Assembly: GCA_031268615.1 (NCBI GenBank)
Contig: JAIRWZ010000069.1
Location: forward strand, 1-16,522
From: Actinomycetes bacterium
GTDB taxonomy: Bacteria > Actinomycetota > Coriobacteriia > WRKU01 > WQUG01
Length of the DNA stretch: 16,522 nt
Reading direction: 5' to 3'
Shown piece by piece: positions 1,608-13,379 of the stretch (the first letter of the stretch is position 1; every line of letters begins with the position of its first letter). The translations under genes and the position numbers were made by a program. Below the pieces are notes generated by a model. It had not been told where the DNA came from. It did not search any database and was given only the letters and a program-made list of their open reading frames with translations.

Positions 1608-1631
1608 TCTGGTGTGGACGCACTCACTCCT
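1608..1631 (+). repeat. Dispersed 16-bp word, copy 1 (intergenic)
   Basis: Positions 1613-1628 read TGTGGACGCACTCACT exactly. The match to other copies extends outward (CTGG before, CCT after). It lies in the divergent intergenic region between the glycosyltransferase and groES, upstream of the groES promoter. Confidence 0.75.
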
Positions 1632-1700
1632 GTTCTGTGAAATGTCGATGAAATCTGTGTGATAGAGACTTAGATTTTCTAAAAAATCTTGCGCAGGGTC

Positions 1701-1729
1701 TTGATTTTTGGGGAAGGCACTTTTACAAT
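1701..1729 (+). promoter_or_regulatory. groESL promoter (sigma70/sigmaA type)
   Basis: TTGATT at 1701-1706 and TACAAT at 1724-1729 are separated by exactly 17 bases. Just upstream, 1672-1689 is an A/T-rich inverted repeat (AGATTTT, spacer CTAA, AAAATCT), placed where an UP element would contact the RNA polymerase alpha subunit. Transcription should begin near 1736, directly before the CIRCE operator. Confidence 0.85.
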
Positions 1730-1738
1730 GGGTCGGCG

Positions 1739-1765
1739 TTGGCACTCGGATGGGTCGAGTGCTAA
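1739..1765 (+). promoter_or_regulatory. CIRCE operator (HrcA binding site)
   Basis: TTGGCACTC, nine bases, GAGTGCTAA. This is the CIRCE consensus TTAGCACTC-N9-GAGTGCTAA with one mismatch in the left arm. It sits at or just after the predicted transcription start, where HrcA represses groESL until heat stress. The hrcA gene itself is not in the window. Confidence 0.95.
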
Positions 1766-1782
1766 CGGCAGACAGGGAAGCA

Positions 1783-1800
1783 TTGGGGCGCCGTCCCCAA
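1783..1800 (+). other. Short hairpin in the groES 5' untranslated region
   Basis: TTGGGGCGCCGTCCCCAA can fold with a six-base-pair stem and a six-base loop, between CIRCE and the groES ribosome-binding site. No U-run follows, so it is not a terminator. It may stabilise the mRNA 5' end. Confidence 0.4.
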
Positions 1801-1828
1801 AAGAATCGAGACTTTGGAGGAGGAAGCT

Positions 1829-2116
1829 ATGAAACTGAAGCCACTGGGCGATAACATTATCGTCAAGCAGGCGGCGGCCGAAACCCAGCTGAAGAGCGGG
1901 CTGTACGTGCCGGACAGCGCGACGGAAAAGCCGCAACAGGGCGAGGTCCTGGCCGTCGGTGAGGGAAAGCTGAACAAAAAGGGTGAGCGTATTCCGGTCG
2001 ATGTGAAGGTTGGCGACGTAGTGATTTACAGCAAATATGGTGGCAACGAGGTCAAGCTTGATGATGAGGAATACATCATTTTGAAGTCTGACCAAGTCTA
2101 CGCCGTGGTTCTGTAG
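1829..2116 (+). CDS. groES: Co-chaperonin GroES (Cpn10)
   Basis: A 95-residue protein, the normal GroES length. It forms the heptameric lid that closes the GroEL folding chamber in the cytoplasm. The start [13 protein letters not shown], the mobile-loop region around residues 16-32 ([14 protein letters not shown]), [14 protein letters not shown] and [12 protein letters not shown] are all family hallmarks. The ATG at 1829 is chosen because a strong GGAGGAGG lies seven to ten bases before it; an upstream in-frame TTG at 1814 overlaps that ribosome-binding site and is rejected. It is the first gene of the CIRCE-controlled operon, 13 bases before groEL, so the two subunits are made together under HrcA control. 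Confidence 0.98.
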
Positions 2117-2126
2117 GAGGAGATGA

Positions 2127-3755
<1,629 letters not shown>

Positions 3756-3758
<3 letters not shown>

Positions 3759-3803
3759 GAAGTGACCGTTGTAAGAGGTGACCGTTGTAAGAGGTGACCG
3801 TTG
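3756..3803 (+). repeat. 16-bp tandem repeat, three copies, starting at the groEL stop
   Basis: Units at 3756-3771, 3772-3787 and 3788-3803. Units 2 and 3 are identical (TAAGAGGTGACCGTTG) and unit 1 differs by one base. The first TAA is the groEL stop codon, so the repeat seems to have expanded out of the gene end into the 3' untranslated region. Confidence 0.9.
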
Positions 3804-3835
3804 GCAAACGAACGAACACCGCCAGCCAACGCAAC

Positions 3836-3869
3836 AAAAGGGACAGGCTTACAGGTCTGTCCCTTTTTT
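3836..3869 (+). terminator. Rho-independent terminator of groESL
   Basis: The stem AAAAGGGACAG (3836-3846) pairs perfectly with CTGTCCCTTTT (3857-3867) around a ten-base loop and ends in six T. The A-run on the left arm means it may also stop transcription coming from the right. Confidence 0.93.
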
Positions 3870-3891
3870 ACGTCCCTCTTATGTTCCTAGT

Positions 3892-3915
3892 TTAAGTGAG
3901 TACGTCCACACCAGC
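3892..3915 (-). repeat. Dispersed 16-bp word, copy 2 (intergenic)
   Basis: On the minus strand, 3910-3895 reads TGTGGACGTACTCACT, an exact match to the consensus TGTGGACGYACTCACT. GCTGG precedes it, as in copies 5 and 6. It lies between the groEL terminator and the convergent ATPase gene and faces copy 3 in inverted orientation. Confidence 0.75.
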
Positions 3916-3976
3916 ACCTCTTGTAACTTGTTGCTGACCTTGGCACTAAATTCTGAAGCTATTGAGGGCATGCAAG

Positions 3977-3992
3977 TCTGGACGTACTCGCT
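3977..3992 (+). repeat. Dispersed 16-bp word, copy 3 (degenerate)
   Basis: TCTGGACGTACTCGCT has two mismatches to the consensus and is followed by TCT as in copies 5 and 6. With copy 2 it forms an inverted pair (AAGTGAGTACGTCCA against AAGCGAGTACGTCCA) about 65 bases apart. Confidence 0.55.
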
Positions 3993-4036
3993 TCTTATTT
4001 GTGTTGAAGAACAATAAGCGCAACAGTTTTGCTGTT

Positions 4037-5242
4037 TCAGGCGATACCTGTCGCTGGTTTATTGAAGAGGGGGACTTTACCCAGCAAAAAGCTTTCCAGC
4101 GAATGGGACGAATCTCCCACCACAATGTTGAAGGCATTTGGGTTGCGCCGGATGAACTCGTAGATGCCACCCGAAGTTTTCGGCTGCCCGCTTTTTACTT
4201 CGATTGCCGTGACTGACGATCCGCTTTGTATCACGAAATCCACCTCATAGTTCCCGTCACGCCACCAATACACGTCAAAACCTTCCGAGGCTCCCCGAGC
4301 CAACAGGTATGCGCCGACAGCGCTTTCTACCAGATGACCGAAACGAGTCGAATCCGCACGCAAATCCAGACCAGCACCGAGGAACGCAACGGCCATCAGC
4401 GAGGGGTCATACGCCATCAGCCGTGGTGAGCTGTTGCGCACCGTCAGCGGACGCTGCGAATATTTTTGCAAACCGCACAGCAGCCCGGCATGCGCAAGTA
4501 GCTCCAGGTAATGGGCCAGCGTCGTCACATTTCCCGCATCGTCCAATTGCCCTAAGAGCTTCTTATAGGACACTTCCTGCCCTGAGTAAGCGCTGCCCAG
4601 AAAAAATAGCTGCCGCAGGAGCGCTGGCTTTCGGATGGCTTCTAAGGCTAGTACATCTTTTGACAGTGTTGCTTCAATGATGGCATCCTGCATGTAGTTT
4701 CGCCAACGCGAAAGGTCATCGCGTAAAGCAGCCGCACCGGGATACCCACCAAAGGTCAGATAGTCATCCAGCGTATACTTAAAGGCATCGCGGCATTCTG
4801 TTAAAGACCAGTGTGGGCAGCGAATAAGTTCGAATCGTCCCATGAGCGATTCCGTCAAACCGGATTGCAGCATGAGCGACGACGATCCGGTCAATATGAC
4901 CCGCAGGTCAATACCGGAACGCGCATCTGCATCCCACAGGGCTTTGACGACGCTAGACCAGCGGGAAACGTTTTGTACTTCATCCAACGCAAGCACAACG
5001 GAAGGACTGTTGTTAGAAATCATGGCACGCGCATAGTTCCATTCTCGCTCAATCCAGGCACGTCCCTTATCCAGTACAGAGTCAATGCTGGCAAAATGAC
5101 ACGGAATGTCGCACTGCGCAAGCGCCTGAGTCAGTGCTGTCGTCTTGCCCGTCTGGCGTGGGCCCATAAGAACCTGCATGAAATGACGAGGTTCTTGCAT
5201 TCGTTGCAACAATACTTCGACCAAAGGACGTTGGTATTTCAT
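4037..5242 (-). CDS. AAA+ ATPase with DUF4143 and nuclease-like C-terminus
   Basis: A 401-residue cytoplasmic protein of the widespread ATP-binding/DUF4143 family, whose cellular role is not established. The N-terminal P-loop domain has Walker A GPRQTGKTT (27-35), Walker B VVLALDEVQ with D87-E88, and a sensor-like ILTGSSS (116-122). A helical, winged-helix-like middle section follows. The C-terminal DUF4143 region carries E333-x-D335 and E348-x-K350 (YEVDFVIQ...IEVKSG), the spacing of a PD-(D/E)XK nuclease-like fold. Whether it cuts DNA is unknown. The start ATG has AAGGGAG five bases upstream. The gene lies tail-to-tail with groESL and upstream of it sits an inverted-repeat operator candidate. 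It shares only the family architecture with the second ATPase at 6380-7648. Confidence 0.92.
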   Translation of the reverse strand: MKYQRPLVEVLLQRMQEPRHFMQVLMGPRQTGKTTALTQALAQCDIPCHFASIDSVLDKGRAWIEREWNYARAMISNNSPSVVLALDEVQNVSRWSSVVKALWDADARSGIDLRVILTGSSSLMLQSGLTESLMGRFELIRCPHWSLTECRDAFKYTLDDYLTFGGYPGAAALRDDLSRWRNYMQDAIIEATLSKDVLALEAIRKPALLRQLFFLGSAYSGQEVSYKKLLGQLDDAGNVTTLAHYLELLAHAGLLCGLQKYSQRPLTVRNSSPRLMAYDPSLMAVAFLGAGLDLRADSTRFGHLVESAVGAYLLARGASEGFDVYWWRDGNYEVDFVIQSGSSVTAIEVKSGQPKTSGGIYEFIRRNPNAFNIVVGDSSHSLESFLLGKVPLFNKPATGIA

Positions 5243-5278
5243 TTTTCTCCCTTCGCGTCAGGTTTGCTCTTAGTAGAG

Positions 5279-5313
5279 TGTATCATTTTGTTCGTTATAC
5301 TGACCAAAATGAT
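5279..5313 (-). promoter_or_regulatory. Promoter and inverted-repeat operator of the DUF4143 gene
   Basis: ATCATTTTG (5282-5290) and CAAAATGAT (5305-5313) are perfect inverted repeats with a 14-base spacer. On the minus strand TTGGTC (5307-5302) and GATACA (5284-5279) are 17 bases apart and could serve as -35 and -10. A protein bound to the repeat would cover the promoter, suggesting repression. The remaining sequence from 5314 to 5463 shows no gene. Confidence 0.5.
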
Positions 5314-5463
5314 TGGTTGCGTTGAACGTTTTAGGGACACATTTTAGTGACGCATCTCTAGTCTAGCTTGGTCTTTGTCCCGCAGATGGCAATCAACTGG
5401 CAGGTAAATATGTATGCTTCCCTGCTGGTTTGCGGCAAACGTGACAGGTCGTTGGAGATACGA

Positions 5464-5853
5464 TTACCACAGTAGGGACAGGCCGGGTAGCGTGGAGAAG
5501 GTCGTGTCGCTGCTGACCAGCGTCAGACCTTCCAGCATTGCCTGTGCTGCCAGCATTCGGTCAAAGGGGTCGCGGTGCTGCCAATCCAGCCGAGCCGCCA
5601 CATAACAATGTCGCGAGGTCAAATCCATTGTGCTTGCACCTATAGTTTCAATTAGTTCTGGCCAGGCTTCGACGATTACCTCGCATTGGGGCAGTTTCCC
5701 CAAGCGATACTTGTTCGCAATTTCATAGGAGCTGATAGCCGATACGAACAGTTCATTTTCTACCGCCATGACTGCTCTTTCAGCTGCCGCGCTGACACGA
5801 TGTGGCTCGTTGACCGCCCACAACAGAATATGAGTGTCCAGCAATAACCGCAC
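5464..5853 (-). CDS. vapC: PIN-domain toxin, VapC family
   Basis: A 129-residue PIN-domain protein, the usual size for VapC toxins, which are metal-dependent ribonucleases acting on RNA in the cytoplasm. The acidic residues expected at the active site are present: D6 in LLLDTHILLW, E44 in SSYEIANK, D95/D98 in RDPFDRMLAAQA, and D116 in LVSSDTTF. The RDPFDR motif places it in the branch paired with Phd/YefM-type antitoxins. The start is GTG at 5853, three bases after the antitoxin stop, with GGGAAT before it inside the antitoxin gene. That arrangement is typical of coupled toxin-antitoxin translation with the antitoxin first. The RNA target cannot be read from sequence. Confidence 0.93.
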   Translation of the reverse strand: MRLLLDTHILLWAVNEPHRVSAAAERAVMAVENELFVSAISSYEIANKYRLGKLPQCEVIVEAWPELIETIGASTMDLTSRHCYVAARLDWQHRDPFDRMLAAQAMLEGLTLVSSDTTFSTLPGLSLLW

Positions 5854-5856
5854 GGT

Positions 5857-6093
5857 TTATTCCCACAGCGCCAGTTCGTCTTCGGGCAGGGGGTCGAAAA
5901 AGCTGTCGGGCAGAGGCGGTAAATCTAAATCTTTCAGAAATCCCAATTCGCGTTTAGCCGGTTTCTCAATCAGCTCAAGGCGTGCATAGGGCACCCCGCG
6001 TTTCGCGATAATCACCTTGTCGCCACGCCCCAGCGAAGCCAGCAGACGGGATAGATTTGTTTTTGCGTCCTGCACGTTCATCGTAATGGTCAT
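5857..6093 (-). CDS. Antitoxin, Phd/YefM family
   Basis: A 78-residue antitoxin. Residues 1-42 (MNVQDAKTNLSRLL...VIIAKRGVPYARLELI) form the Phd/YefM DNA-binding fold, which dimerises and represses its own promoter. The acidic, proline-rich tail FFDPLPEDELALWE is the segment that wraps and blocks the PIN toxin in this family. The first ATG (6093) is preferred because GGGAGG lies eight bases upstream. The gene is directly upstream of the toxin with a three-base gap, and a strong promoter with an inverted-repeat operator lies ahead of it. Together they form a complete, apparently functional toxin-antitoxin module. Confidence 0.93.
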   Translation of the reverse strand: MTITMNVQDAKTNLSRLLASLGRGDKVIIAKRGVPYARLELIEKPAKRELGFLKDLDLPPLPDSFFDPLPEDELALWE

Positions 6094-6129
6094 CAGGCAC
6101 CTCCCAGATTTCCAAGCTCGTAGGCTCTT

Positions 6130-6176
6130 AGCATAGCGCAGCCAGATAATCTGGTCAAGTTGAGTTGACCAGATTA
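6130..6176 (-). promoter_or_regulatory. Toxin-antitoxin promoter with 12-bp inverted-repeat operator
   Basis: On the minus strand TTGACC (6158-6153) and TATGCT (6135-6130) are 17 bases apart, a good sigma70 promoter. The -35 lies in one arm of a perfect inverted repeat: TAATCTGGTCAA (6147-6158) and TTGACCAGATTA (6165-6176), spacer six bases. This is the expected site of autorepression by the antitoxin-toxin complex. Confidence 0.8.
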
Positions 6177-6252
6177 GGTTATGCCGCTCGCCAAATCTCG
6201 CAACACGTATACTCTCGCCATGTACACCCCCGATGGCAGCCGGTCCACCTGA

Positions 6253-6332
6253 CTATTTCTGTAGAAATAGACTACTAACTCCCGTAGAAATAGACTATTA
6301 ACTCCCGTAGAAATAGGCTATTATAGAGCCTA
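6253..6332 (+). promoter_or_regulatory. 23-bp iterons and palindromes before the second DUF4143 gene
   Basis: Two near-identical 23-bp units (6261-6283, 6284-6306; one base different) and a partial third (6307-6325) each begin GTAGAAATAG[AG]CTA. Unit 1 is preceded by an inverted copy: CTATTTCT (6253-6260) against AGAAATAG (6263-6270). Units 2 and 3 contain AATAG-N-CTATT. The array ends in TAGGCT (6314-6319) / AGCCTA (6327-6332), which encloses a possible -10, TATTAT (6319-6324). No good -35 is visible, suggesting an activator or a repressor array. Confidence 0.6.
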
Positions 6333-6379
6333 TGCGCAGTTCATTGGAACGTGACAACGGAAAGGAAACGGAAATACTT

Positions 6380-7648
6380 ATGCACTATATACCGCGGTTG
6401 CTTGATGAAAAACTTGCGTGGTTGGTCGGGCATCTTCCGGCTGTTGTCATTGACGGTGCGAAATCAGTCGGAAAAACGGCTTCCGCCCAACGGTTGGCAC
6501 AGACAGTTTTTGAGCTGGACCAAACGCCAGTGCGCGAGACGCTGCTGTCCAGCCCCCGACTGTTAGAAGAGTCTGCGCCACCGGTACTCGTGGATGAGTG
6601 GCAGCGCGCACCCGAAATCTGGGACAGACTACGCCGGGCAGTGGACGCTGACGACGAGCGCAGCCACTTTATGCTGACCGGAAGCGCCTATCCCTTGGAC
6701 GCGTCCCTGCATAGTGGAGCGGGACGAATCGTCCACCTCAGGTTGCGTCCGTTTTCCCTTAGCGAGCGGGGACTGGGAACATCGACAGTCAGCCTGAACG
6801 CTCTGCTGGAATCATCTGATGTCAGCGTTGTCGGTCAGACAGACCTTGAATCTATAGATTATCTGCATGAAATCCTAAAATCAGGTTTCCCTGCCATCCA
6901 CCGTCAGGCACCGACAATCGCCGGAGTACGACTGGACGGCTACCTTGACGATATCGTAGAGAGACGAGTCCCCGAACAGGGGGTTGAAATCAGGAAACCG
7001 CAGACGCTACGAAACTGGCTGCGTGCGTATGCTGCCGCAACCGCCAGCACAGCGTCTTATGAAACGATACTGAACGGAGCTACCCCCGGCGAAGACAACA
7101 AGCCAGCGAAAAGGACAACTCTCATCTATCGCGATGTACTCGCCTCGCTCTGGTTGATAGATCAGATTGACCCTTGGCTACCCATGAATACAACCTTTGC
7201 CTACTTGGGGCGCTCTCCCAAGCACCATCTAGTTGATCCGGGACTTGCCGCAAGACTGCTCGGACTGACCGAAAAAAACCTGCTAAAAAGTAGCGAGGGC
7301 ACGGTACTGGGTCCACAGAAAAAATCCCTGTTTGGCAGGTTGTTCGAAAGCCTCATCGCCCAAAGCCTGCAAACCTACTGCCTCGTCTGCGACGCAAAGC
7401 TCTATCACTTGCGCACCTCAACTGGCGCGCATGAAATCGACTTCATCGTGGAGCGGGGGCGAGACATTGTTGCAATTGAGGTCAAATTCGCCGCCACCGT
7501 TGAGGGCAAAGAAATGCAACATCTGCAATGGCTGGAAAGACAGTTCCCCGAATATCGGGTGACCAAAGCGCTGGTCAACGTCGGGGCACGGGCTTACACG
7601 CGCGATGACGGCATACACGTGATACCGGCGGCTCTCTTCGGACCCTAG
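6380..7648 (+). CDS. AAA+ ATPase with DUF4143 (second copy, divergent subfamily)
   Basis: A 422-residue ATP-binding/DUF4143 protein of unknown cellular role. The N-terminus MHYIPRLLDEKLAWLV...VVIDGAKSVGKT places Walker A at about 26-33. Walker B is PVLVDEWQ with D72-E73, followed by the sensor-like FMLTGSAYP (97-105). The C-terminal region has the nuclease-like pattern E352-x-D354 and E367-x-K369 (HEIDFIVERG...AIEVKF). The start at 6380 fits the usual family opening. An in-frame ATG at 6332 would lie inside the terminal palindrome and almost at the predicted transcription start, so it is less likely. The protein is clearly a different subfamily from the 4037-5242 gene. It is transcribed away from the toxin-antitoxin pair and faces the permease tail-to-tail. 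Confidence 0.9.
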   Translation: MHYIPRLLDEKLAWLVGHLPAVVIDGAKSVGKTASAQRLAQTVFELDQTPVRETLLSSPRLLEESAPPVLVDEWQRAPEIWDRLRRAVDADDERSHFMLTGSAYPLDASLHSGAGRIVHLRLRPFSLSERGLGTSTVSLNALLESSDVSVVGQTDLESIDYLHEILKSGFPAIHRQAPTIAGVRLDGYLDDIVERRVPEQGVEIRKPQTLRNWLRAYAAATASTASYETILNGATPGEDNKPAKRTTLIYRDVLASLWLIDQIDPWLPMNTTFAYLGRSPKHHLVDPGLAARLLGLTEKNLLKSSEGTVLGPQKKSLFGRLFESLIAQSLQTYCLVCDAKLYHLRTSTGAHEIDFIVERGRDIVAIEVKFAATVEGKEMQHLQWLERQFPEYRVTKALVNVGARAYTRDDGIHVIPAALFGP

Positions 7649-7730
7649 CGACGAATGCGCAGTGAGTATTGAGCCTGCCCCTGGCTTGACCGGAGACAGA
7701 CTCAAGTCACTCACTTAGCGTTTTTCGTCG
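7649..7730. terminator. Long imperfect hairpin between convergent genes
   Basis: Three nested inverted pairs: CGACGAA (7649-7655) with TTCGTCG (7724-7730), AGTGAGT (7661-7667) with ACTCACT (7709-7715), and TTGAG (7669-7673) with CTCAA (7701-7705). It fills almost the whole gap between two converging stop codons, so it is probably a bidirectional transcription barrier. There is only a short T-run (7721-7725), so intrinsic termination is uncertain. Confidence 0.5.
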
Positions 7731-7735
7731 AGCGG

Positions 7736-9121
7736 TTAATCGACGATACTGGACAGTTCTTCGTTTTGTTCGGCTTCTGCCTTTGTGCCGCCTATGGACA
7801 AAATCAGGTTCAGGACTATGCCGAAAATCGCGGCGGTTGCGATGGCGGGCAGCTTGATACCGAAAAACGGGATACCGTTCGGACAGGCATAGTAGCCGCC
7901 GACCCCGATAATCATCGTCACGGCGATGACCGACAGGTTGCGCGCGCTGAACATGTCAACCTTTTTTTCAATCATGATGGCGACGCCCTGAGCGGCAATG
8001 ACGCCGAACAGGAATATGCAGGCGCCGTTGATGACCGCGCCGGGCACCGTGTTGATAAAGTTTGACAGCGGCGTCACAAAGCTCAACAAAATCGCCAACA
8101 CTGCCGCCACTCCCAACATGACGACGCTGAAGTTTTTCGTAATCGCCATGGTCGAGATGTTTTCTCCATAGTTCGTGCCGGCAGGCCCTCCGAACAGGGA
8201 CGCGATGATGTCACCCAAGCCGTCGCCAACCAGATTGATACCCAGTTTGTCGGCAATGTGATAGGGCTTTTTACCCTTTTTGCGGGCCAGGTCATTCACG
8301 TAGATGTCTAACTGAAACAGGTGCGCCGTCGATTCTGGAATAGTCGCGATGGCAATCGGCATGATTGCCAGCACTGCTGGCCATGCCGTGACATCCGGCA
8401 GGGTGAAATGGGGCAGACTGACAAAGCCTTGCGAAAATACCGCGGAAAAATCAACGATGGTCGGGCCGCCCACAAACGGCGACAAGAGCGCCGCAACATA
8501 GCCGACGATAATCCCGAACAAAATGGGCAGCTGGCCCAACACGCCTTTCAGGTACACGGAAAAGCCAACCGTTGCCAGCAAGGTAATCAGCGCGATAACC
8601 CAGGAAGCATTGACCGCGGTATCGGCAGTCGCGTCATACCCGATAGCAGAAGTCAGCGCTGTGCCGGCCAGCGTAATGCCGATAATCAGCGCAATAGAGC
8701 CGGTAATGGTCGGCGGCAGAACCTTTTCGATTTTCTCCATCCCGAAACGCGACACAATCAGACCCGCCACAATAGAGACCAAGCCCGACATGATAATGCC
8801 GAACTGTGCCTGACTGATAATCGCGTCGGGCGCCAGACCATTGGCCATGAGCTGGCCGCTGGTCATCGCCATAATCGGCGCCAAATAGGAAAACGACGAG
8901 CCGTAGTACAGCGGGATTTTCCCGCGGGTGACCAGCAAAAATCCCAGGGTCGCCAGACCGCTGGCAAAAATGGTGGTCGAAACATGAAAACCGGTCAGCA
9001 GCGCGACGGTGACGGTAGCGGGAAACATCACCAGCACTTGCTGCAGCGCGAACAACAGCAGCTTGCCTAACGACGGTGTTTCATCAGGCAAATACCCCAG
9101 TTCGCTTTTGATTGTTGCCAT
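7736..9121 (-). CDS. Uracil/xanthine permease (NCS2 family)
   Basis: A 461-residue, multi-spanning membrane protein of the nucleobase-cation symporter-2 family, which imports uracil or a purine base with a proton. It is rich in hydrophobic helices from about residue 18 on. Key family positions are visible: IPESTAHL with E263 and H267 in the substrate-binding helix, and GGPAGTNYGENISTMAITK (311-329), the counterpart of the GGxxxTxYGEN motif of uracil permeases, with E320. The LPDETPSLGKLLLFALQQVLVMF opening also resembles UraA. Uracil is therefore the likeliest substrate, but not proven. The ATG at 9121 is chosen because GGGAGG sits about seven bases upstream; an in-frame start at 9190 would add an unlikely Arg/Gly-rich leader. 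Confidence 0.92.
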   Translation of the reverse strand: MATIKSELGYLPDETPSLGKLLLFALQQVLVMFPATVTVALLTGFHVSTTIFASGLATLGFLLVTRGKIPLYYGSSFSYLAPIMAMTSGQLMANGLAPDAIISQAQFGIIMSGLVSIVAGLIVSRFGMEKIEKVLPPTITGSIALIIGITLAGTALTSAIGYDATADTAVNASWVIALITLLATVGFSVYLKGVLGQLPILFGIIVGYVAALLSPFVGGPTIVDFSAVFSQGFVSLPHFTLPDVTAWPAVLAIMPIAIATIPESTAHLFQLDIYVNDLARKKGKKPYHIADKLGINLVGDGLGDIIASLFGGPAGTNYGENISTMAITKNFSVVMLGVAAVLAILLSFVTPLSNFINTVPGAVINGACIFLFGVIAAQGVAIMIEKKVDMFSARNLSVIAVTMIIGVGGYYACPNGIPFFGIKLPAIATAAIFGIVLNLILSIGGTKAEAEQNEELSSIVD

Positions 9122-9424
9122 TCGATTCCTCCCTTTCTCTTCCGGACTGCCCCTACCCGTTCCCGCGCGTGCCACAAACGCCGACAACACAGACTTGCGC
9201 CAAAGCCAAAGCCGAAGCCGAAGCCAACGCCAACGCCAACGCCAACACTAACACCGGAAACGATATCTTCGTTTGCCATGATAAACTATTGTCTGCGTGC
9301 GTGGGAACGCAAAAGAGAGAAAAAACGCGCGAGACGAAATAGAACTGAAACACTGACGAGAACTGCGGGACCGCACGGAGGTCTGTACGGGGCGCGAAAG
9401 CGCGTGAGGGGGCGAAATAAGGCA
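9122..9424. other. Divergent intergenic region, permease / hypC
   Basis: Apart from the hexanucleotide repeat at 9199-9252 this holds an inverted repeat AAACGA/TCGTTT (9258-9263, 9269-9274) and, just before hypC, small hairpins: TGCG/CGCA (9364-9375) and GCGC-GAAA-GCGC (9392-9403), the latter with a GNRA tetraloop. These could be a structured hypC leader. I see no convincing -35/-10 pair on either strand and no credible gene. Confidence 0.5.
9199..9252. repeat. Hexanucleotide repeat upstream of the permease
   Basis: Eight contiguous units of GCCRAM: GCCAAA twice, GCCGAA twice, GCCAAC four times (9199-9246), then ACTAAC. The homogeneous blocks suggest slippage. It lies about 80 bases before the permease start, in its likely 5' untranslated region. 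Copy number changes would alter leader length without touching either flanking protein. Confidence 0.9.
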
Positions 9425-9706
9425 ATGTGTCTGGCGATACCGGCGCAGCTGCGCGAGAAAAAGGGCACCAATCTGGCAATCGCTGAAGTCATGGGCGCGA
9501 CGCGCACCATTTCTCTGGATTTGACGCCAGCGGCAGAGGTCGGCGATTGGGTGCTGATGCACGCCGGGTTTGCCATCGAAATCGTCGATGAACAGTTCGC
9601 CAACGAAACGCTGGAGCTGCTGCGTGCCCTGCCTTTTGCAGAGGAGGAAGCGCCCCCGCCCGCAACATTCCAAACAGCTGCGAAAGCGACGGCCGCCAAT
9701 GCCTGA
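9425..9706 (+). CDS. hypC: Hydrogenase maturation chaperone HypC
   Basis: A 93-residue HypC/HybG-type chaperone. It carries the Fe(CN)2CO group with HypD and delivers it to the large subunit of [NiFe]-hydrogenase. The N-terminal MCLAIP, with the essential Cys2 exposed after Met removal, and GDWVLMHAGFAIEIVD (40-55) are diagnostic. The last 20 or so residues are an Ala/Pro/Thr-rich tail beyond the usual core. The ATG at 9425 is required to give MCLAIP; longer upstream frames are ruled out by that. Spacing to a ribosome-binding site is not ideal (GAGGGG far upstream, AAGG close). The stop overlaps hypD by eight bases. Confidence 0.97.
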   Translation: MCLAIPAQLREKKGTNLAIAEVMGATRTISLDLTPAAEVGDWVLMHAGFAIEIVDEQFANETLELLRALPFAEEEAPPPATFQTAAKATAANA

Positions 9707-10829
9707 TTTCAACTCAAGCGGATGGCGCGACCCGGATATCGCGCGCCGATTAGTTGCCGGCATCCACGCACGGGCGGCGCAATTGAGTGAGTGCGTCCAT
9801 ATTATGGAAGTCTGCGGGACGCACACCATGTCCATTGCGAAAAATGGACTGCGGGGACTGTTGCCGGAAAACGTGCGCCTGCTGTCCGGACCGGGCTGTC
9901 CGGTCTGTGTGACGGCAAACGCGGACATCGACCACGCTATCGCTCTGGCAGGTATCGACGGGGTCACCGTGGCTACCTTTGGCGATATGCTGAAGGTACC
10001 CGGATCTTCGACCTCGCTGGCAGCCGAAAAAGCGGCCGGCGCTGACGTGCGCGTCGTCTATTCCCCTCTGGACGCTTTGGAGTTAGCTGAACGTGAGCCG
10101 GAGCGTCAGATTGTCTTCATTGGCGTGGGTTTCGAGACCACCGCGCCCACGGTTGCCGCTACCATTAAGCGAGCGGCAGCAGCGCAGCTGGACAATTTCA
10201 GCGTATTTTCCGCGCACAAAACCGTACCGCAAGCGCTGCGCGCTATCGCGTCTGACCCCGACATTGCTCTCTCCGCGCTGATTTTGCCCGGACACGTATC
10301 CACTATCATTGGCGTTGCTCCTTACGAGTTTTTGGCCGATGAATTCGACATCCCCGGTGTGATTACCGGCTTTGAGCCAGTGGATATCTTGCAGGGTATC
10401 TACCTGTTGATACAACAGCTGGCGGAGAGTGCGAGGGGGACCGGACAGGTATCTATCGACATCGCTTACGGTCGTGGCGTACGCGGTGAAGGTAATCCGC
10501 ACGCCGTCGCCTTGATTGAGGAAGTGTTTGCAGCGGACGACGCCGAGTGGCGCGGTCTGGGAGTCATCCCCGGTACCGGACTGACCTTGCGGGAACCCTT
10601 TGCCGCCTTTGACGCCCGTCGGCGTTTTTCTCCTGAGGTCGAGCCTGCCCGCACGGTGAAGGGCTGCGAGTGCGGGGATATCTTGCGTGGTATCAAACGC
10701 CCCGATGAATGCCGGCTCTTCGGGCGCGCCTGCGTACCGGAACGTCCGGTTGGACCGTGTATGGTGTCATCCGAAGGTTCCTGTGCGGCTTGGTATCGCT
10801 ATGGAGATGGGAGTGGTTATGCCGCATAA
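9699..10829 (+). CDS. hypD: Hydrogenase maturation protein HypD
   Basis: A 376-residue iron-sulfur protein on which, with HypC, the Fe(CN)2CO unit of [NiFe]-hydrogenase is assembled. HIMEVCGTHT contains C39 and GPGCPVC contains C67 and C70, the conserved redox/iron-ligating cysteines. C-terminal cysteines at about 323, 325, 338, 345, 354 and 362 (KGCECGDIL...DECRLFGRAC...GPC...GSC) include the [4Fe-4S] ligands. The ATG at 9699 lies within the last codons of hypC. No strong ribosome-binding site is seen, so it is probably translated by coupling. Residues 30-35 are encoded by one copy of the dispersed 16-bp word, on the opposite strand. Confidence 0.97.
   Translation: MPDFNSSGWRDPDIARRLVAGIHARAAQLSECVHIMEVCGTHTMSIAKNGLRGLLPENVRLLSGPGCPVCVTANADIDHAIALAGIDGVTVATFGDMLKVPGSSTSLAAEKAAGADVRVVYSPLDALELAEREPERQIVFIGVGFETTAPTVAATIKRAAAAQLDNFSVFSAHKTVPQALRAIASDPDIALSALILPGHVSTIIGVAPYEFLADEFDIPGVITGFEPVDILQGIYLLIQQLAESARGTGQVSIDIAYGRGVRGEGNPHAVALIEEVFAADDAEWRGLGVIPGTGLTLREPFAAFDARRRFSPEVEPARTVKGCECGDILRGIKRPDECRLFGRACVPERPVGPCMVSSEGSCAAWYRYGDGSGYAA
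9786..9801 (-). repeat. Dispersed 16-bp word, copy 4 (inside hypD)
   Basis: The minus strand reads TATGGACGCACTCACT, one mismatch to TGTGGACGYACTCACT. It falls just before the codons for the conserved MEVCGTHT motif, in a part of HypD that is normally variable. Confidence 0.65.
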
Positions 10830-11988
10830 GCGCACAGGCACAATAGGCGACGCTGACAAAATAGCGCTGGCACACGGTTCAGGGGGGACCCTCATGCGTC
10901 GTTTGATTGAGGATGAGTTTGCCACCGTATTTTCTGACGTGCAGCTGGAGGACGCGGCTACCTTATGCCTGCCTTTGATATCCCAGGCTCGCACATTGGG
11001 GGAAGGCCTGGATTCCGGCTCGGGGGCCGGAATGACGGTAAAGTCGGGGGCCGGAATGACGGTAAAGTCGGAGGCCGGAATGACGGGGGAAGAGGCTTTT
11101 GGCACAGCGGCGGCTGGCCGGATTGCCTTTTCTACTGATACCTTTGTGGTGCAACCGCTCTTTTTCCCCGGTGGGGACATCGGCCATCTGGCTGTGTGCG
11201 GTACCGTGAACGACGTTGCCACCGCTGGAGCCACCCCGCTGTGGCTGTCGGTGGGCTTTGTTTTGGAGGAAGGCTTCCCCCTGGCTGACTTGCGTCGCAT
11301 TCTGCATTCTATGGCAACAGTCGCCCAGGAAGCAGGGGTCAAGATTGTCACCGGAGACACCAAGGTGGTCAACCGAGGGGCAGCCGATGGCATTTTCATC
11401 AACACCGCTGGTGTGGGCGTACTCACTTCTGCTCATCAGCTTTCCGCCGCCGCCGCCCGTCCCGGAGATGTCGTTTTGCTCTCCGGAAGTATCGGCGACC
11501 ATGGCATTTGCATCATCAGTCAACGCGAAGGTCTGGCCTTTTCTACCGATATCGAAAGCGACGCGGCGCCGCTGAACCAGCTCTGCGCTGACGTCTTAGC
11601 CGCCGCGCCCGACACGCGGCTCTTGCGCGACCCGACGCGCGGGGGTCTGGCCTCGGCGCTGAATGAAATCGCCGACGCCTCGCAGGTTTCCATCGAGGTT
11701 GATGAGGCCAGCGTTCCTGTCAAAGACCAGGTTCGCGGCGCCTGCGAGATGTTGGGCTACGATGTGTATCAGGTTGCCAATGAGGGAAAAATGATTGCCA
11801 TCGTCCCGGCCGCACAAGCTGACGCCGCGCTGCGTGCGCTGCGTGCCAACGCCTACGGCAGCGACGCTGCCATCATCGGGCAGGTCAGCGCTGATTATGC
11901 GCCCGGACGCGTCGTCGTGCGCAACGCCTTTGGCGCCACGCGCATTATGGATACCTTAGTCGGAGAACAACTGCCCCGCATATGTTAA
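10819..11988 (+). CDS. hypE: Hydrogenase maturation protein HypE, with repeat insertion
   Basis: A 389-residue HypE, which dehydrates the carbamoyl group received from HypF on its C-terminal Cys to thiocyanate, the cyanide source for the hydrogenase iron. The AIR-synthase-like ATP-binding core is intact: ALAHGSGGTLMRRLI (about 17-31), FFPGGDIGHLAVCGTVNDVA (115-134) and VTGDTKVV. The protein ends correctly in PRIC with the essential terminal Cys. Residues about 53-99 are an extra segment not found in ordinary HypE, containing GAGMTVKS twice and EAGMTG. It comes from a palindromic/tandem repeat inserted in frame. The start ATG at 10819 has GGGAG five bases upstream and overlaps hypD by 11 bases; ATGs at 10801 and 10807 lack such a site. 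Confidence 0.95.
   Translation: MPHKRTGTIGDADKIALAHGSGGTLMRRLIEDEFATVFSDVQLEDAATLCLPLISQARTLGEGLDSGSGAGMTVKSGAGMTVKSEAGMTGEEAFGTAAAGRIAFSTDTFVVQPLFFPGGDIGHLAVCGTVNDVATAGATPLWLSVGFVLEEGFPLADLRRILHSMATVAQEAGVKIVTGDTKVVNRGAADGIFINTAGVGVLTSAHQLSAAAARPGDVVLLSGSIGDHGICIISQREGLAFSTDIESDAAPLNQLCADVLAAAPDTRLLRDPTRGGLASALNEIADASQVSIEVDEASVPVKDQVRGACEMLGYDVYQVANEGKMIAIVPAAQADAALRALRANAYGSDAAIIGQVSADYAPGRVVVRNAFGATRIMDTLVGEQLPRIC
11007..11086 (+). repeat. In-frame palindromic and 24-bp tandem repeat within hypE
   Basis: CCTGGATTCCGGC leads into a palindrome, ATTCCGGC (11012-11019) and GCCGGAAT (11026-11033) with a six-base loop. The right half is then repeated: 24-bp units at 11022-11045 and 11046-11069 are identical, and a partial third copy runs to 11086 with one change. 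The GGATTCC...GGAATGAC pattern resembles dispersed palindromic elements of other bacteria, such as dRS3-like repeats. All lengths are multiples of three and the frame stays open. Confidence 0.88.
11407..11430 (+). repeat. Dispersed 16-bp word, copy 5 (inside hypE)
   Basis: Positions 11412-11427 read TGTGGGCGTACTCACT, one mismatch to the consensus. Including the flanks (GCTGG before, TCT after) 22 of 24 bases match copy 6 in pgi, in the same codon phase, although the two proteins are unrelated. Confidence 0.6.
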
Positions 11989-13379
11989 ACAATGCCCGCA
12001 AAGCTCCCTCTGTCGTCGCGGAACTGCAAGCGTTGCGCCAACGCGTTCATGCCGCCTTCACGCCACGCGATATCGTCGTGTTGGGCATGGGCGGCTCGAC
12101 GCTGGCAGCACGCGTTCTGTCTGAGGTGTATACAAGCGAGCTGCGACATCTGGGAGTGCGCCTGCGTATCATCGACACAAGCGAGCCGCATACCGTCAGC
12201 GCTGCGTTGGACGCCACTGACGCCGCGGACACCCTCGTGTTGGTTTCGTCAAAGTCCGGCGCTACCGTAGAAACGAAGGCGCTGTGCTGCCTGTGGTTCG
12301 CGAAACTGCGCGAGAATCTGGGCTCGGCAGAAACTGCCGCCACCCATTTCATCGCGTTGAGTGACGCAGACAGTCCCCTGCAACAACTGGCTCACCGGGA
12401 GGGTTGGCAGGCCGTCATCACAACGCCCGCGGACACAGGCGGTCGTTTCTCCGCGCTGACCGCTTTTGGTTTGGCGCCCCTTGTGCTAGCGGGAATCGAC
12501 CCCGGTGACCTGCTGAAAAGCGCACTGTCCATGGAAGACGATTGCCTGGCCGGACTGAAGGTTGGCGGCGACCCGGCGTCCTCGCTGGCAGCAGTCATCT
12601 ATGAGCGCTACCGCGCCGGACGCGACAAACTGTTGCTGGTACCCCCGGCAGAGGTACCTACCTTTGGGCTTTGGCTGGAACAGCTCCTGGCCGAATCTTT
12701 GGGCAAAGACGGGCACGGTATCATCCCTCTGCCCTGCGACCCTCTGCGCGCCCACAATTTATTGGTAGCCGGGAGGGATTGTCAAGAGTTTGTCCTCCCC
12801 AGTACTCTGTCAGCCGCAGGTATGGGAGCTGAATTGGTTCGCTGGATATTTGCGACGCAGCGCCTGGGCCAGCTGATGGGCGTCAATCCCCTCACCCAGC
12901 CCGATGTTGCCGCCGCAAAGGTGAACACAGAAGAGTTGCTGGCACGCGGAGCGGGCGAGGTGACAGGGAGCGAACTGCTTGGTTCAGGTAAAAATCTTAG
13001 CACCCATGAGCTGGCCGAATTGCGAGGGGGAAACCGGCCCCGTCTCGACCTTCCTCCCCGGACAACCCACCTTGTCCTGCTGGTATGGCTTCCTGAAACT
13101 CGCGAGGTCATTGCTGGTGTGGACGCACTCACTTCTCAATTGGAGCGGGAACTGGGGGTGCCTGTCTGTGTGGGATATGGCCCGCGCTACCTGCACTCGA
13201 CCGGGCAGCTGCACAAGGGTGGTCCCGACACGGGCGCCTATCTGTTTCTGTCGGAGACGGAGACGGATGATTTCGACCTGCCCCTACCGGAGCGACCCTA
13301 TACGCTGCGGCAACTGTACGCCGCGCAAATGGCGGGCGACCAGGAGGTCTTGCGGGAGAGGGACCGCGCGTTGTTGTAG
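11982..13379 (+). CDS. pgi: Phosphoglucose isomerase, transaldolase-fusion type, stand-alone
   Basis: A 465-residue cytoplasmic SIS-fold enzyme expected to interconvert glucose-6-phosphate and fructose-6-phosphate. Visible motifs are VLGMGGSTLA (33-42), SSKSGATVET (89-98, phosphate binding), GGRFSALTAFGL (153-164), WLEQLLAESLGKDG (231-244, with a candidate catalytic Glu) and STGQLHKGGPDTG (406-418). The pattern, and the C-terminal LRQLYAAQMAGDQEVLRERDRALL-like end, match the isomerase half of bifunctional transaldolase/phosphoglucose isomerases rather than classic Pgi. No transaldolase domain is fused here. The ATG overlaps the hypE stop by seven bases, so translation is probably coupled. A copy of the dispersed word lies at 13113-13136. 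Confidence 0.88.
   Translation: MLNNARKAPSVVAELQALRQRVHAAFTPRDIVVLGMGGSTLAARVLSEVYTSELRHLGVRLRIIDTSEPHTVSAALDATDAADTLVLVSSKSGATVETKALCCLWFAKLRENLGSAETAATHFIALSDADSPLQQLAHREGWQAVITTPADTGGRFSALTAFGLAPLVLAGIDPGDLLKSALSMEDDCLAGLKVGGDPASSLAAVIYERYRAGRDKLLLVPPAEVPTFGLWLEQLLAESLGKDGHGIIPLPCDPLRAHNLLVAGRDCQEFVLPSTLSAAGMGAELVRWIFATQRLGQLMGVNPLTQPDVAAAKVNTEELLARGAGEVTGSELLGSGKNLSTHELAELRGGNRPRLDLPPRTTHLVLLVWLPETREVIAGVDALTSQLERELGVPVCVGYGPRYLHSTGQLHKGGPDTGAYLFLSETETDDFDLPLPERPYTLRQLYAAQMAGDQEVLRERDRALL
13113..13136 (+). repeat. Dispersed 16-bp word, copy 6 (inside pgi)
   Basis: Positions 13118-13133 read TGTGGACGCACTCACT exactly, identical to copy 1, with GCTGG before and TCT after as in copy 5. It encodes the peptide AGVDALTS near the end of the isomerase. 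Confidence 0.72.

Follow-up and report, generated by a model that had tools for sequence, protein, structure and literature searches.

A dispersed 23-base word with genus-specific spellings in Coriobacteriia as a probable DNA uptake signal

The DNA analyzed here is a stretch of 16,522 nucleotides (the window), which is contig C81 (GenBank JAIRWZ010000069.1) of the draft genome of an Actinomycetes bacterium from the class Coriobacteriia (assembly GCA_031268615.1, hereafter G000; 1,067,089 bases, 157 contigs, 62% complete), and the element in question is a word of ~23 bases that occurs six times in the window. Copy 1 (CTGGTG-TGGACGCACTCACT-CCT; 1609..1631, plus strand) lies in the intergenic region upstream of groES, contains an exact 16-mer at 1613-1628, and scores 37.7 bits with the position-weight matrix (PWM) described below. 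Copy 2 (3892..3914, minus strand; exact at 3910-3895; PWM 32.1) lies between the convergent groEL and AAA_14/DUF4143 genes, and copy 3 (3973..3995, plus strand; two mismatches at 3977-3992; PWM 35.4) is followed by a T-rich tail; these two copies are the first and second arms of an inverted pair, with the arms being 83% complementary. Copy 4 (9783..9805, minus strand; one mismatch at 9801-9786; PWM 25.8) is antisense within hypD (Pfam PF01924). Copy 5 (11408..11430, plus strand; one mismatch at 11412-11427; PWM 31.8) and copy 6 (13114..13136, plus strand; exact at 13118-13133; PWM 36.8) are in the sense orientation within hypE (AIRS domains) and pgi (PGI Pfam), where they encode AGVGVLTS and AGVDALTS, respectively.

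A first-pass annotation, made from the sequence of the window, had listed six sites of the 16-mer in both orientations, both between genes and within genes, and had judged a chance origin improbable. The coordinates, strands, and mismatch counts of the six sites were all reproduced, as was their distribution over both orientations, between genes and within hypD, hypE, and pgi. The hypE and pgi copies were identical at 22 of 24 bases and shared the codon phase, as had been stated. Dinucleotide shuffles of the window gave 0.21 expected sites with ≤3 mismatches, and none of the 200 shuffles reached six, which bears out the judgment on chance.

The abundance of the word was determined over the whole draft by counting it against its reversed pattern; the first-pass annotation had proposed a genome-wide count against a shuffled or Markov background. 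The core TGGACGYACTCACT was present in 234 exact copies in G000, evenly divided between the strands (117 each, with no strand skew), and its reversal was absent. The 16-mer occurred 16 times exactly (0 for the reversed pattern) and 442 times with ≤3 mismatches (8 for the reversed control). These results indicate that the word is far above the reversed control outside the window, contrary to the first of the two outcomes that the annotation had named as refuting its proposal. For the matrix scans we used the window together with 20 further stretches (L031-L050; 265,610 bases, about a quarter of the draft), which are long contigs known to carry a site. A scan at >9 bits returned 115 sites and 2 in the reversed sequence, and iterative refinement of the matrix, with the threshold fixed by the reversed control, gave 119 sites or 1 per 2.2 kb at a threshold that admits 3 reversed-control sites. 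All six window sites were among the matrix matches.

To define the extent of the word, 95 of 96 sites with ≤1 core mismatch were aligned, one being excluded as too close to a contig end. The alignment read g-CAGGTA-TGGACGYACTCACT-YCT followed by a T-leaning tail, with a near-invariant core and weaker flanks. The information upstream covered ~6 bases (CAGGTA) and that downstream 3–6 bases (YCT, then T-leaning), and, apart from the Y, the core varied mainly at its bases 4, 8, and 12 (A to G). The full motif is thus CAGGTATGGACGYACTCACTYCT, of ~23 bases. The 16-mer first taken as the word is accordingly real and over-represented, yet its bases 1–2 are weak (at base 2, A is commoner than G) and the motif is longer than it. 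Beyond about −9 to +24, the flanks held ≤0.12 bits per base, and the sites are therefore not parts of longer repeats or pieces of longer homologous sequence, the outcome that the annotation had named as contrary to its proposal.

The absence of a conserved longer flank bears on the first alternative explanation, namely that the word is a short repeat scattered through the genome, or a mobile element, and is tolerated in genes. Hundreds of copies in one genome, in a spelling nearly absent from relatives (see below), would be in keeping with such a repeat. The alignment of orthologues across the sites speaks otherwise. In 77 alignments of genic sites with orthologues, which cover 25 of the 66 genic sites and in which some best matches are possibly paralogues, a gap fell at the site in 17 (0.22), compared with 0.227 in random windows. 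The orthologues hence span the sites without an excess of gaps, and the word sites therefore arose in place by substitution rather than by insertion. In addition, 4 site–relative pairs, representing 3 distinct G000 sites, coincided with a site of the relative's own spelling, compared with 0.43 expected, 2 of the 4 depending on the matrices of G003 and G008, which are weak. The dispersed-repeat explanation, to which we give almost no credence, is largely refuted already. Repeats of the REP or MITE type were likewise rejected as an identity for the word, which is asymmetric, has no longer flanks, and leaves no insertion signal in orthologues.

The 66 sites that fell within predicted genes, as delimited by a rough gene caller, comprised 32 sense and 34 antisense sites. 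Among the sense sites, 25 of 32 shared one codon phase, yielding peptides such as VDALTS and MDVLTS. The amino acid identity at the site was 0.315, compared with 0.442 over the whole alignment (52 pairs with family members); the word may override the protein, or it may settle at positions where the protein is little constrained. The remaining 53 of the 119 sites were intergenic, compared with 19.5 expected.

This intergenic enrichment would also be expected of a transcription terminator or regulatory element, and the inverted pairs, one of which carries a T-rich tail in an intergenic gap, point in the same direction. The pair in the window (copies 2 and 3, in the groEL–ATPase gap) forms a long stem followed by that tail, with a predicted fold of −37 kcal/mol. 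Close pairs (<150 bp) in the G000, G001, and G006 samples, the last two being relatives described below, were all inverted (28 of 28, none direct); 21 of the 28 were arranged reverse-then-forward, and 19 did not lie within one predicted gene. The numbers of pairs were not above random in G000 and G001 and were somewhat above random placement in G006 (10 v 5.8). Against a terminator, most copies are single, 66 of the 119 fall within predicted genes, in either orientation, and close pairs in G000 are no commoner than under random placement; the intergenic sites between tandem genes were 17 co-directional and 18 anti-directional in G000. We consider a terminator or regulatory element highly improbable.

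The spacing and orientation of the sites were compared with a placement simulation. The spacing in G000 was somewhat more even than random (coefficient of variation 0.73 v 0.92–0.95, P 0.0015–0.003), and the sample contained 5 gaps over 5 kb, compared with 9.3–9.8 in the simulation (P 0.012–0.025). Neighboring sites in G000 tended to alternate in orientation: 63 of 90 pairs ≥200 bp apart did so (p 2e-4), as did 58 of 84 pairs ≥500 bp apart. For 127 control 7-mers, the average fraction was 0.44, and none of the 127 reached 0.70. The tendency was weaker in relatives, G001, G004, and G006 among them: in the pooled data of five other genomes, 169 of 291 pairs alternated at the 200-bp limit (p 0.007) and 138 of 253 at the 500-bp limit (p 0.17), and alternation was absent in G008 (17 of 36 pairs).

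These properties bear on a second alternative, namely that the word is bound by a protein that organizes or segregates the chromosome, as in nucleoid occlusion, condensin loading, or FtsK guidance, and is maintained chromosome-wide both in coding and in non-coding DNA. The dispersal of the word, its tolerance in genes, and its somewhat even spacing in G000 would suit such a site, and the alternating neighbors could reflect looping or pairing. However, the polar guides of this kind (KOPS, Chi, AIMS) are strand-skewed, whereas the word is found on the strands in the proportion 117/117 with alternating neighbors, and sites of the parS, Noc, and SlmA type are palindromic, whereas the word is not. 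Moreover, ~400 copies per Mb far exceeds the density of such sites, and a change of word between genera of one family would be unusual for a housekeeping protein. We regard a chromosome-organizing site as unlikely. A polar guide in particular was rejected on the 117/117 strand distribution and on the neighbors in G000, only 27 of 98 of which were co-oriented.

One long interval of the window, 3996-9782, contained no copy of the word over 5.8 kb; it encodes two AAA_14/DUF4143 ATPases, a PIN-like open reading frame (ORF; assigned by eye), and a xanthine/uracil permease, and it is possibly acquired DNA. Other long word-free gaps contain conserved genes, for example those for ribosomal proteins. 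The window also holds three tandem arrays: a 16-mer repeated three times at the end of groEL (3754-3801), a 23-mer repeated three times upstream of an ATPase gene (6261-6329), and a 24-mer repeated three times in hypE (11020-11091), which adds an in-frame repeat to the protein.

We investigated the distribution of the word among relatives of G000, whose nearest named GroEL relatives are metagenome-assembled genomes of Coriobacteriia (75–77% identity); the relatives available included no genome of the same genus. The exact core was found in 4 of 98 relatives, with ≤3 copies each, and once each in 8 of 395 other genomes of the phylum sample. Word discovery in sister genera of the same family revealed dialects that share the frame TGGnCnnnCTC and differ in spelling by genus. 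The dialect of genus g2 (G001) was gt.cTGGACa.aCTCc.CC, at 1 per 1.2–1.3 kb, and that of genus g4 (G006) was c.gg..TGGACGcaCTCC.CC, at 1 per 2.1–2.3 kb; the two were used 59/59 and 41/41 on the two strands, respectively. A degenerate form of the word was counted against its control in each genome. The counts were 432 v 3 in G000, 141 v 2 in G006, 110 v 4 in G005, and 92 v 3 in G001, corresponding to 84–405 per Mb in these four genomes. They were lower in G003 (23 v 0), G004 (19 v 0), G008 (19 v 0), G007 (9 v 3), and G002 (5 v 2), and the order's two remaining families, represented by five genomes, gave 1–4 (v 0–3). In other members of the class (396 genomes in total), the counts rose to 72 v 21 with densities of ≤~29 per Mb, which we attribute to codon bias. 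The densities in G003, G004, and G008 (14–21 per Mb) were no higher than in many of these class genomes (up to 29), in which the controls are higher.

The genomes with low counts were judged by a letter-rearrangement test, in which TGGnCnnnCTC was ranked among itself and its 209 letter rearrangements (210 arrangements in all), because in G007 and G010 the matrix procedure had ended in codon-like matrices unrelated to the word. The frame ranked first of 210 in G000, G001, G006, and G005 and third in G004 and G008. It was unremarkable among the 210 arrangements in the family members G003 (rank 35), G007 (49), and G002 (60) and in G009 (96), G010 (85), and G012 (71), the tested members of the other families of the order; G003 was thus not significant despite its degenerate-word count of 23 v 0. 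In four loci of named Coriobacteriia (L071-L074), which span only 3.5–21.6 kb, the frame was in no clear excess, with counts of 6 v 3, 1 v 5, 0 v 3, and 8 v 6. These results indicate that one family carries the word, with a shared frame and genus-specific spelling, and that some of its members are without it.

Two side observations concern individual drafts. In G005 (L185-L190, L243-L255), the GC content was 0.577 in the first six contigs and 0.495 over all 19, which suggests that this draft is a mixed bin. In G012 (L206-L210), a palindromic repeat of ~32 bases, TGGGACAGwAGGGTCGGTTCCtTTTGTCCCA, gave 48 matrix matches in 100 kb, with 24 on either strand because each palindromic copy is counted on both; it is unrelated to the word, being REP-like and different from the uptake-like word.

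A lineage-specific word with dialects could also mark self DNA for an intracellular reader, such as a defense nuclease or recombination enzyme by which word-bearing DNA is spared or stimulated. The form GGTATGGACGYACTCACT had 0 matches in viral contigs, as such a marker would lead one to expect; this null result carries little weight, since the search may have omitted close records and may have covered few host-matched viruses. The known intracellular markers (Chi, restriction sites) are 4–8 bp long, and Chi is strand-skewed. We consider this explanation decidedly improbable.

The first-pass annotation had proposed a search for com genes, and the search for competence and pilus genes showed that G000 itself has ComEC and a TadA-type ATPase and that relatives have ComEA and DprA. 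ComEC was present in G000; of 17 other genomes searched, 16 had it, the exception being G005. A search for ComEA with TIGR00426 at E 1e-3 gave matches in 12 of 14 genomes, 5 of them above the cut-off; the match in G005 was weak, lay in a 1,175-residue frame, and is probably not a true ComEA. Neither TIGR00426 nor a protein query found ComEA in G008, and the protein query also missed G000 and G005. In most genomes in which both genes were placed, ComEA was encoded within ~1.5 kb of comEC; in G001 they were on different contigs, and the comEC contig of G000 starts just upstream of comEC.

A T2SSE ATPase was found in 9 of 9 family genomes and, judged from its neighboring genes, is taken as TadA. 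By Pfam, G001 encodes RcpC, a TadZ-like protein, two T2SSF proteins, and a sub-threshold Flp match, and G000 encodes RcpC and the ATPase. The Tad core genes lie in clusters common to carriers and non-carriers of the word, and therefore no Tad gene is singled out as its reader; the other loci have part of these clusters in common, within the limits of their contigs and of the ORF picking. In regard to ComEA, the protein contains an SLBB domain in the carriers G001 and G006 (by Pfam) and in G004 (by sight) and is without it in the non-carriers G002 and G007; the comparison set L299, L297, L298, and L327 against L302 and L304. The ComEA of G003, which has no significant word, shares 52% identity with the G006 protein over residues 36-270, SLBB region included, and the wordless G009 and G011 of another family appear, by sight, to have SLBB in ComEA. 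An SLBB-bearing ComEA as the word reader is thus only a lead.

The annotation had left three options, namely an uptake signal, a chromosome-organizing site, and a coding-tolerant repeat. We favor the first because the word is frequent, balanced between the strands, asymmetric, tolerated in coding DNA, and of in-place origin, because sister genera have dialects of it, and because of the competence and pilus genes. Within Coriobacteriia (Actinomycetota), the word is probably a DNA uptake signal that is convergent with the DNA uptake sequence (DUS) of Neisseriaceae and the uptake signal sequence (USS) of Pasteurellaceae. In the mechanism we propose, cells of this lineage would take up free DNA, and a surface or membrane receptor would prefer fragments containing the asymmetric word of ~23 bp. 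Word-bearing fragments would be imported and recombined more often, and this biased import, with homologous replacement, would spread, repair, and maintain the word on both strands, in genes and in gaps, leading to hundreds of copies ~2 kb apart. As the specificity of the receptor drifted, each genus would acquire a dialect of its own, and the word would disappear where the system was lost. The candidate readers would be a ComEA variant with an SLBB domain or a Tad pilus subunit. Biased uptake would thus explain the occurrence on both strands, the coding tolerance, the in-place origin, the dialects, and the losses.

Several results weigh against an uptake signal. In G000, whose draft is 62% complete, ComEA was absent from the search with TIGR00426 and the protein query, and DprA, present in 13 of 14 genomes, was not found. 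The N_methyl pilin (PF07963) was found in 0 of 9 family genomes; the known type of receptor for uptake words is an N_methyl minor pilin. The word-free family members G002 and G007 likewise have Tad genes and ComEC, and the machinery alone therefore does not predict the word. The number of close pairs showed no excess over random placement (8 v 7.2 in G000 and 10 v 14.8 in G001), the spacing in G001 and G006 was no more even than in the placement simulation, and the fold of the window pair only modestly beats shuffled sequences (z −2.0; 7 of 200 shuffles as good). The alternating orientation of neighboring sites is not known to be a property of uptake words; it may reflect avoidance of direct repeats close to each other, between which DNA could be deleted.

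No report of an uptake word in Actinobacteria or Coriobacteriia was among the matches listed in searches of the open-access literature. On this sequence evidence, we lean toward the fuller proposition, with somewhat less assurance than toward the uptake signal as such, that the word may be an independently evolved, dialect-forming uptake signal, longer than those of the two proteobacterial families and the first outside them, with a Tad pilus component or the ComEA SLBB domain rather than a type IV minor pilin as its reader. If so, it would be a third case, unrelated to the other two and from another phylum, with dialects of its own and another type of pilus, and it would show that genome self-tagging by uptake bias evolves repeatedly. 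It would also provide an independent replicate for the question of why uptake words arise, and it would predict competence in an uncultured lineage. With carriers and non-carriers in one family, it would offer a system in which the receptor could be sought, as could the cause of word gain, dialect change, and loss.

The gene content is compatible with uptake through a Tad pilus, as in Liberibacter crescens and Micrococcus luteus. Tad-dependent DNA uptake reportedly occurs in M. luteus; neither species is known to have an uptake word. For L. crescens, Tad-pilus-dependent DNA uptake is reported in PMC8513845. The only families known to have such words are Neisseriaceae and Pasteurellaceae, according to a 2025 paper (PMC12616744). 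The word resembles the USS of Pasteurellaceae in having a strong core followed by a weaker, T- or AT-leaning flank and in being present about every 1–2 kb and inside genes. It differs from the USS in its core, which is TGGACGYACTCACT and not AAGTGCGGT or ACAAGCGGT, and in its actinobacterial host; the pasteurellacean word family was rejected as an identity, as the sequence differs by eye. In regard to the DUS, PMC3630211 describes dialects and inverted pairs for Neisseriaceae. The word shares with it the many copies (hundreds to thousands for the DUS), the location in genes and gaps, the inverted pairs, and the short core common to the dialects of different genera. It differs from the DUS in its sequence, which is unrelated by eye, in its length (~23 bp compared with 10–12), in its phylum, and in the pilus genes, which are of the Tad type, with no N_methyl minor pilin of the ComP type found. 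The neisserial DUS proper was likewise rejected, the consensus of the word being unlike GCCGTCTGAA by eye and the PF07963 pilin having been found in none of the nine family genomes. The first-pass statement that the word matches neither the Neisseria nor the Pasteurellaceae uptake words therefore holds by eye for both.

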